A DNA stretch of 60,120 nt from Negativicutes bacterium. GTDB taxonomy: Bacteria; Bacillota; JAAYKD01. The first letter of the stretch is position 1. Every line of letters starts with the position of its first letter. The position numbers and the translations under genes were made by a program. This document shows, in pieces, positions 58,654-60,120 of the stretch. Where the stretch lies: NCBI GenBank assembly GCA_021372785.1, contig JAJFTT010000066.1:1-60120 (forward strand), written 5' to 3'. Under the pieces are notes generated by a model. The model did not search any database. It saw only the letters and a list, made by a program, of their open reading frames with translations, and was not told the origin of the DNA.

Positions 58654-59550
58654 TTATGGTAAGCGAAAGCCATATTTCTCTAAGACAGCCAGCGGAAATC
58701 CCATACGCACTGTTTTAAGCGGATCCACCACCTGACAGATGGTCATATGGCTCAAGAGAGACATCAGCATAGCCGCTTGATTGATGGAAACGCCGCAGGC
58801 TTTCATCAGGAAGGCATGCATTTTTTCGCTGGCTAACCTGGCGGCGGCATCCAGCGTCAGTGCCGATTGAATTGTCATCACAACACCCTCATCCAGTAAA
58901 AAAGGAGTTGGCAATTGCACTGCTTTGATGACCTGCACGCGCAGCGTTACTTTACCGCGGCATTCCATCCCGCAGATCATCACTTCGCCATCCGCCATCA
59001 AAGCATGCAGATCACCCATGGCCAGCAGCGCTCCATCGCAATTCACCGGTAAATAAAGTGTGCTGCCCTGGCGGATCAAGCGACAATCCATATTGCCGCC
59101 GTGCTCACCCGGGGTTTCCGTGCCGACTGCTCCGCCAGACTGCGGGGTTGTGCCGATCACGCCGATCATCGGGTCGATTGGCAGGGATAACTTTTCGTCA
59201 AAAACGATCCGCCCCTTCTCAATTGAAAAGATCCGAACCTCTTTCTCTTGAATGATACCCACCAAACCGCCATCCGTTACGGAGGTCCGCATTACTCCGG
59301 TAGGAGCTACTTCAATCTCGAGAATTTCAACTTTGAGAATATCACCCTTGGCAGCCCCATGGACATAAAGCGGGCCGGTAGCCGGATTGGCATACGCTCT
59401 GGCCAATGGATCGGAGGTTTCTGATACAACACTGTCGTCATAACAATCTCTGGTATGGAAAACGACTGTATCACCATTCTGACAGTAGGCTACAGCAGGA
59501 TTTAACTCTGATAATTCACCAACCACATGCTCTCTGCCGATTTCGATCAA
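58654..59550 (-). CDS. Acetamidase/formamidase family protein (298 aa)
   Basis: The TTG start, six bases after GAGGGG, gives MIEIGREHVVGELSELNPAV. The domain has VNPATGP-like ANPATGPLYVHGAAKGDILKVEI, TPGEHGGNMDCRLI and LAMGDLHALMADGEVMICG, the zinc-binding core of the FmdA_AmdA family. It hydrolyses short amides such as formamide or acetamide to ammonia and acid. The length fits the short clade. There is no obvious operon partner, and the region upstream to the hairpin repeats is unassigned. Confidence 0.9.
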   Translation of the reverse strand: MIEIGREHVVGELSELNPAVAYCQNGDTVVFHTRDCYDDSVVSETSDPLARAYANPATGPLYVHGAAKGDILKVEILEIEVAPTGVMRTSVTDGGLVGIIQEKEVRIFSIEKGRIVFDEKLSLPIDPMIGVIGTTPQSGGAVGTETPGEHGGNMDCRLIRQGSTLYLPVNCDGALLAMGDLHALMADGEVMICGMECRGKVTLRVQVIKAVQLPTPFLLDEGVVMTIQSALTLDAAARLASEKMHAFLMKACGVSINQAAMLMSLLSHMTICQVVDPLKTVRMGFPLAVLEKYGFRLP

Positions 59551-59780
59551 ATTAATCCCCTCTTTGTTTTCAATTTCTTCCAGTATAGCAAGTACAAATC
59601 ATTCTGTAAAGCGGATATCCGCAAAAATTAACCCCAAAATCAAAATACATTGTTCCCCCTCCTCCTAACTCCACCCTCGTTTCCATTCTCTTCCGAAGCA
59701 GTTATCTGAAATGAACCCAGAGGAGTAAATTTTTGCTCCTTCATGTGCCATTTTTTGTGAACTATTATAACCTACTGCCC

Positions 59781-60120
59781 AGAACGCCGGCGGTGTCCTG
59801 CAGGCGGCATTGAGCGCCAGCTAGCCGCCATAAGGATGCCGCCGGCGTTCGTAAACCACCTCTCCTACACTCATTCACCCCTGTCTCCACGTCCCTTCCC
59901 GCGTACAAAACAAAAGAATGAACCCCTGCCTCCCTGCTCAGAACACCGGCGGTGTCCTGCAGGCGGCATTTAGCGCCAGCTAGCCGCCATAAGGATGCCG
60001 CCGGCGTTCGTATAATGAAGTTAATCCTCGTCTCCCCGTCCCTTCCCGCGTACAAAACAAAAGAATACACCTATGCCTGTCGCTCAGAACGCCGGTGGTG
60101 TCCTGTAGGCGGCATTGTGC
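59781..60120. repeat. Tandem GC-rich hairpin repeats
   Basis: Three copies of a unit beginning AGAACGCCGG or AGAACACCGG start at 59781, 59940 and 60086 (third cut by the window end), 159 and 146 bases apart. Each 70-base unit folds into a long hairpin: GAACGCCGGCGG pairs with CCGCCGGCGTTC and inside it GGCGGC pairs with GCCGCC. A linker with GTCCCTTCCCGCGTACAAAA is shared too. It may be a REP-like or miniature element, or a structured RNA. A 101-aa frame across it is not a gene. Confidence 0.85.

Follow-up and report, generated by a model that had tools for sequence, protein, structure and literature searches.

Nested intergenic hairpins of a Negativicutes bacterium: a probably genome-specific repeat family with tandem arrays behind rRNA operons

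The window analysed here, 60,120 nt of DNA from a Negativicutes bacterium, is an entire contig (C66) of a 2.1 Mb genome assembled in 74 contigs. Its GC-rich terminal hairpins belong to a family of nested hairpins of about 70–80 nt. The family itself, the covariation of its stems, the position of three sister arrays behind 5S rRNA genes, the order of the linkers and the differing numbers of units were observed directly. As the explanation of these data we favour, with reasonable confidence, a genome-specific intergenic stem-loop repeat family, of which one branch was amplified behind the rRNA terminator and spread by recombination between operons. We are probably dealing with a real hairpin family that is mostly a passive repeat rather than a new kind of machine.

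RESULTS

The hairpin array of the window

A first-pass annotation of this DNA had described three hairpin copies in 340 bases, each with a perfect outer stem of 12 bases. The units are indeed GC-rich, but the final 340 bases of the window hold only two complete hairpins and the start of a third, and the outer stem has 12 perfect base pairs in unit 1 only. In unit 2 the fifth outer pair is an A-C mismatch on the + strand and a G-U pair on the other strand. The stems of unit 3 cannot be checked because this copy is incomplete. The start-to-start spacings of 159 and 146 bases and the sharing of linkers between units agree with the earlier description, as does the statement that the array runs out of the window: it stops because the contig ends, inside unit 3. 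The features of this region are the following.

58654–59550, − strand: acetamidase/formamidase-family gene (PF03069, 1.8e-27), the neighbour of the array and outside it
59782–59850, + strand: hairpin unit 1, 69 nt, with an 18-bp outer stem, a 3×3 internal loop, a 6-bp inner stem and a small apical stem
59851–59940, no strand: linker of type A, 90 nt, starting with GTAAACCACC
59901–59924, − strand: copy of the rRNA terminator 3′ arm in linker A, 2 mismatches to the pattern
59941–60009, + strand: hairpin unit 2, 69 nt, built like unit 1 but with one A-C mismatch in the outer stem
60010–60086, no strand: linker of type B, 77 nt, starting with GTATAATGAAG
60048–60071, − strand: copy of the terminator 3′ arm in linker B, 2 mismatches
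60087–60120, + strand: incomplete hairpin unit 3, its first 34 nt up to the contig end

On the + strand the predicted folding energies of units 1 and 2 were −54.0 and −50.7 kcal/mol, respectively. Compared with dinucleotide shuffles these folds had z values of −7.4 and −7.8, and none of the 200 shuffles was equally good. Against covariance model R3 (see below), in which both units are included, they scored 88.6 and 87.2 bits, and unit 3, which is outside R3, matched model positions 1–40 with 29.2 bits and was cut at its 3′ end.

The acetamidase/formamidase-family gene is transcribed away from the array. A promoter-like site lies near it at 59610–59582 on the − strand (0.7 such sites expected by chance). 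The sole Rfam match in the window at the gathering score was a tRNA. The nearest named sequences of one protein were from Bacillota metagenome-assembled genomes, at 53% identity.

Sister arrays behind rRNA operons

The genome contains nine complete units of the type seen in the window (rrn-type units) and a truncated one, on four contigs. Besides the window, arrays were found at the ends of contigs C38, C57 and C4, with four, two and one unit, respectively. All three are located directly 3′ of a 5S rRNA gene and its putative terminator, so that the putative terminator and the 3′ end of the 5S gene lie between the array and the contig end. The putative terminator, a stem-loop with a T-rich end (−24.9 kcal/mol), was recognised by reading. 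The array of C4 adjoins a partial 5S gene, which passes the Rfam 5S threshold as a cut-off match (45.3 bits), and at the ends of C38 and C57 direct reading identified the final few dozen bases of this 5S. Whole-genome 5S searches listed no match for this genome, consistent with truncated genes. The arrays of C38, C57 and C4 are immediately 3′ of rRNA operons. Since the window's contig ends inside its array, the corresponding position of that array is judged from its likeness to the matching arrays, and it would also adjoin an rRNA operon.

All nine complete rrn-type units are 69–72 nt long, and all nine hairpins fold better on the + strand, i.e. antisense to the rRNA; a role in the rRNA transcript is therefore not favoured. 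In the stretches with the arrays of C38, C57 and C4, Rfam matched the 5S part and, at a great distance from the array, a T-box. When the array of C38 was searched with Rfam to E 10, five matches appeared, all far below the cut-offs. The best of them was mir-2041 (E 0.0046), a hairpin-only microRNA model, and RF00001 did not appear. In local alignments of the units to three 5S sequences, one of them partial, the best alignments were equalled by 18 to 181 of 200 shuffles. By the Rfam scan and the shuffle-tested alignment the units were rejected as 5S remnants.

Linkers and terminator arms

Linkers were assigned to types A, B and C from the bases following each hairpin. Type A follows the first unit of C66, C38 and C57, and is 89–92% identical between loci. 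Type B follows the second unit of C66 and of C38 (94% identical) and the unit of C4. Type C follows unit 3 of C38 and unit 2 of C57, and a variant, C′, follows unit 4 of C38. The linker orders are A-B-C-C′ in C38, A-B in C66 (where the array is cut), A-C in C57 and B in C4. Linkers inside one array are 73–90% identical. Type and identity disagree in places: the type B linker of C66, which in this comparison extends into the start of the cut-off unit 3, is 92% identical to the type C linker of C38 unit 3, and the two C linkers, C38 unit 3 and C57 unit 2, are 84% identical. The linkers that run into the terminator (C38 unit 4, C57 unit 2 and the unit of C4) are 93–95% alike regardless of type. 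The constant linker order suggests one ancestral array, in which units were gained or lost at different rRNA operons. Recombination between the operons would be the obvious route for such gain and loss.

The genome was also searched with the pattern of the terminator 3′ arm, allowing up to 3 mismatches. There were nine matches, as against one for a control pattern: three in the terminators, one in each of five of the six inter-unit linkers, and one in the distal flank of the C4 unit. By reading, the C57 linker contains a more changed form of the arm, which is too diverged to match the pattern.

The anatomy of the arrays points to a likely course of events. A hairpin would have arrived next to the rRNA terminator, and a duplication with one end inside the terminator could then have created a unit composed of the hairpin and the terminator 3′ arm. 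Unequal recombination may subsequently have altered the number of units, and exchange between rRNA operons would have spread, homogenised and shortened the arrays.

Dispersed relatives in the same genome

A covariance model of the nine rrn hairpins (R1) found just two further places in the genome, both weak (E about 0.01). The first is a tandem pair on contig C11, with a carboxypeptidase-like gene on one side and a class-II (D/K/N-type) tRNA-synthetase gene on the other. The second is a single copy on C65, closely similar to unit 4 of C38. A T-box leader was suspected at the C11 place by reading; Rfam gave no match there at its cut-off. A second model (R2), to which the C11 and C65 copies had been added, matched on C49 a hairpin pair (30.1 and 27.0 bits) that follows a DUF5131 gene, and on C36 a single, weakly scoring copy that follows a MATE gene (20.3 bits, E 0.06); these three hairpins are not in R2. 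Altogether six diverged hairpins occupy four intergenic places (two on C11, one on C65, two on C49 and one on C36). None of the dispersed copies had an Rfam match. By reading, the C49 and C36 copies are flanked by an A-tract and a T-tract, like two-way terminators.

With the third model (R3), at least 15 complete copies (nine rrn-type and six dispersed) and the truncated one were counted, a lower bound as 150 of 2532 first-look candidate places were scored. R2 and R3 contain most of the copies that they score.

Two other structures were seen on C49 (L194:1314–1376 and 1592–1631). Between the two hairpins there is a short tandem repeat of three 24-nt copies spaced 19–20 bases, and behind the second hairpin there is a degenerate third copy of one hairpin arm. 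A 37-nt match on contig C55 (6975–7011, − strand, L284; R3 E 0.12) has both core motifs by letters, TCCTGCAG and CAGGAT. It could be a short or degenerate member of the family and was not accepted as a copy.

The family has a common internal core, TCC-YGCAG opposite AGGA. In an alignment of 12 rows, comprising six of the nine rrn hairpins and the six dispersed copies, TCC, GCAG and AGGA are invariant; unit 3 of C38, which is outside this alignment, has GGAG. The pattern GTCYYGCAG..AGGA occurred at 19 places in the genome, compared with three for a control pattern. Eight of these places are rrn units and one is the C65 copy. None of the remaining ten was judged a convincing family hairpin.

Covariation and relatedness of the copies

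Among the 12 aligned copies, changes on both sides that keep the pairing were found at 8 of the 18 outer pairs and 2 of the 6 inner pairs. Cells with such a change numbered 25, as against 9.1 in shuffles, and none of 500 shuffles reached this value. All shuffles also stayed below the observed covariation score and the observed share of paired cells. When the partner columns were slid by 1 to 3 positions, the share of paired cells fell from 84.9% to 35–52%. Two of the five measures were weak: pairs with a both-sided change (10 versus 6.5 in shuffles, 19 of 500 as high) and further pair types (18 versus 16.2, 103 of 500 as high). Covariation scores can be inflated by relatedness alone. The first-pass annotation had named a lack of further copies and of compensatory changes in the stems as evidence against its proposal; copies were found, and the stems do change on both sides with pairing kept.

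The relatedness of the places was assessed by pairwise alignment of seven representatives. Eleven of the 21 pairs beat all 500 dinucleotide shuffles and all 500 hairpin-keeping shuffles. These eleven connect all seven representatives and include C66–C11, C66–C36, C66–C65, C11–C49 and C49–C36. The other ten pairs did not beat every shuffle, C66–C49 among them: unit 1 of C66 aligned to the two C49 hairpins no better than 146 and 24 of 500 dinucleotide shuffles. The link from C66 to C49 runs via C11 and C36.

A structured transcript had been proposed as one possible nature of the array. In the 12 aligned copies 242 of 285 cells were paired on one strand and 237 on the other. The strands pair equally, and the comparison therefore points to neither strand and to no transcript. 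An RNA made from one strand throughout the family is unsupported, despite the better folding of the nine rrn hairpins on the + strand.

Search in other genomes

The family was sought outside its own genome with several methods. A two-unit query matched, by blastn in 61 genomes, this genome only; no match was obtained in the 60 others, of which one belongs to the same family, two to the same order and the rest to the same phylum. Exact linker and hairpin patterns had no match in viral contigs, an exact-pattern scan of genome contigs, which may leave out the own genome, was likewise without a match, and none appeared among the plasmids and phages searched. With R1, ten of the 61 genomes had a match at E ≤ 10; the best one outside the own genome had E 0.03, and none was accepted. 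With R2 the best match in three relatives had E 0.12.

Of 39 other genomes, 24 had an R3 match at E ≤ 1 (25 of 40 with the own genome). The two best matches elsewhere, 47 and 45 nt long (E 6.7e-6 and 3.6e-5), are short hairpins lacking the core. Ten matches of other genomes were inspected together with two weak ones of the own genome, and the ten were mostly short or generic hairpins. On 39 fetched 5S-flank stretches (468 kb) R3 had three matches, the best of 12.6 bits.

One of the ten inspected matches, in genome G018, is a hairpin that has both core motifs by letters, TCCTGCAG and CAGGAT (C1:2374126–2374180, − strand, L204), and the opposite strand of which was matched by R1. It is a chance likeness or a distant relative and was not accepted as a homologue.

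5S flanks of related genomes

One hand-picked 5S locus per genome was surveyed in 39 genomes, mostly on long contigs, among the 5S matches listed plus G001, G002 and G018. One stretch (L254) was on the wrong side of the 5S gene and was dropped, leaving 38 genomes. Direct repeats of at least 30 nt (E ≤ 1e-3, offset at least 40) within 1 kb 3′ of the 5S gene were found in 4 of the 38 genomes, compared with 3 of 341 control kilobases further downstream. Five of the 38 flanks (G001, G002, G011, G016 and G018) had already been inspected before the survey, and two of them, G018 and G001, are among the four positives. The other two positives are a tRNA cluster (L256) and a single 31-nt pair (L244), so that 2 of the 33 previously unseen genomes were positive, neither resembling a hairpin array. 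Tandem arrays behind 5S genes as a phylum-wide feature are unsupported by this survey.

Repeats of other kinds were seen in three of the previously inspected genomes. In G001, of the same family, a tandem repeat of about 95 bases follows both 5S loci found there (L016:320–900 and L020). The two 5S stretches are near-identical (474 of 490 bases, 5S included), and relatives of the repeat are numerous in G001, with 113 matches (E ≤ 1) to a query of 581 bases. In G002 a second copy of the 3′ end of the 5S gene and the terminator follows the intact 5S at a distance of about 215 bases (L015, about 1279–1536). In G018, a single-contig genome, 5S-like copies stand behind each of the three full 5S genes found (C1, at 49574, 422988 and 1058611; L018, L021 and L022). 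There are ten such copies in all, with scores of 38.5–45.1 bits and a spacing of about 221–228 bases.

DISCUSSION

The closest parallel in position are the distal 5S pseudogenes of Peptococcaceae and Pseudoalteromonadaceae, which the passage concerned in PMC7812874 places at the distal end of the rRNA operon, after the normal 5S gene. They contain large insertions and may be present in several copies, each after a putative terminator. The 5S-like copies of G018 resemble the Peptococcaceae pseudogenes as described there. Our arrays share with them the place behind 5S at the operon end (C38, C57 and C4, the last with a single unit, and by likeness the window's array). In contrast to what that passage describes, the hairpin arrays repeat the 3′ arm of the terminator only, and the hairpins have relatives away from rRNA operons. 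Apart from it, the literature we searched contained no description of hairpin arrays behind rRNA operons.

As a kind, the stem-loop repeat family is known. PMC2267715 describes, for bacterial genomes in general, intergenic repeats that form families with a common stem-loop. Unlike the families described there, the one found here has its main branch confined to rRNA operon ends in tandem, and the letters of its outer stem are replaced while the core is kept. ERIC and BOX elements are repeated intergenic stem-loop families too, and differ in the same two respects. These two traits, amplification in tandem behind rRNA operons and exchange of the outer stem around an unchanged core, mark the present family as a variant of this kind.

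Beside a passive repeat we considered a functional boundary at the rRNA 3′ end, in which the repeated hairpins and terminator arms would form a tandem terminator or processing array (sites of double-strand RNases, end protection) that stops read-through out of very active rRNA operons. The location of three arrays directly behind a 5S gene and its putative terminator speaks for it, as do the terminator 3′ arm repeated in the linkers, the fold maintained across the copies and the A-tract/T-tract flanks on C49 and C36. In the fold predicted for C4 the hairpin is enclosed by pairing between the 5′ arm of the terminator and the second 3′ arm, but in those of C57 and C38 the 5′ arm has its own neighbour as its sole or main partner. 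E. coli rrnB has tandem terminators, T1 and T2, behind the operon. The arrays share with these the presence of more than one hairpin behind an rRNA operon; unlike T1 and T2, the additional hairpins are copies of a single repeat, and in none of the nine rrn-type units, read on both strands, is the stem followed by a T-run within 8 bases. A consensus terminator scan found no terminator in the C38 and C66 stretches, a weak negative as it also misses the putative 5S terminator in C38. The variation of unit number from 1 to 4, the poorer folding of the rRNA-sense strand and the rarity of tandem repeats behind 5S in the survey are further points against a functional boundary, and we regard it as unlikely. 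In the reading that we favour, the hairpins would serve at most as a passive back-up 3′ boundary, by pausing, trimming or protecting read-through RNA, and not as a dedicated element. The strength of the hairpins and the predicted fold of C4 make a back-up role in stopping or trimming such RNA possible.

Mobilisation in trans, as a true REP or MITE, by a Y1 (RAYT-type) transposase of the same genome is quite improbable. In the sections of PMC3733652 and PMC8266576 that we used, REPs are intergenic palindromes, mostly downstream of coding regions and often near each other, some with mismatched stems. The intergenic palindromes of the present family, with some mismatches inside the stem, have this much in common with them, and the genome matches PF01797 at four places; in three of these the match lies in an open frame of 197–262 aa (on C18, L038/L121; C48, L034/L119; C36, L037/L120). 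As characterised in the relevant section of PMC3733652, the GTAG/CGTC super-families have a palindrome that bears an unpaired tag, GTAG or CGTC, at one of its ends, measure 20–40 bp, reach high copy numbers and, in the case of GTAG repeats, are associated with RAYT (Y1 tyrosine transposase) genes. Neither tag occurs in the 8 bases next to the stem, read on both strands, in any of the nine complete rrn-type units. By that account the family also differs in the size of its units, in its few copies and in its head-to-tail order. The transposase linkage that the first-pass annotation had raised was not seen: R2 found no copy in the fetched 4.5–6.5-kb stretches around the four PF01797 places (L119–L122). 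The outer stems differ between places, unlike those of a recently moved element. Strict GTAG/CGTC membership fails on tag, size, copy number and RAYT linkage, and the REP-like family of the annotation holds in the loose sense of dispersed intergenic imperfect palindromes with an internal loop.

A site acting at the DNA level, with cruciform or protein-bound hairpins as a replication or transcription roadblock beside the rRNA operons, would agree with the shared internal core and with the absence of strand preference, which is expected if the DNA rather than one RNA matters, but the same core is present at the non-rRNA places on C11, C49, C36 and C65, and we consider such a site very doubtful. 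There is likewise a slim chance that a host factor binds the core and that the arrays are adjustable boundary elements behind rRNA operons, which limit read-through or replication conflict and are renewed by recombination between operons. Eukaryotic rRNA genes are accompanied by repeated terminator and fork-barrier elements, and the arrays would then be their bacterial counterpart.

The passive stem-loop repeat family that we favour implies that the 3′ flanks of rRNA operons can gather tandem structured repeats that apparently evolve together with the operons. Flanking repeats of this kind are known from the 5S pseudogenes of Peptococcaceae, and here they come from an unrelated hairpin family that has members elsewhere in the genome. 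If the hairpins act at rRNA 3′ ends, the number of units, 1 to 4, would be a natural test variable.
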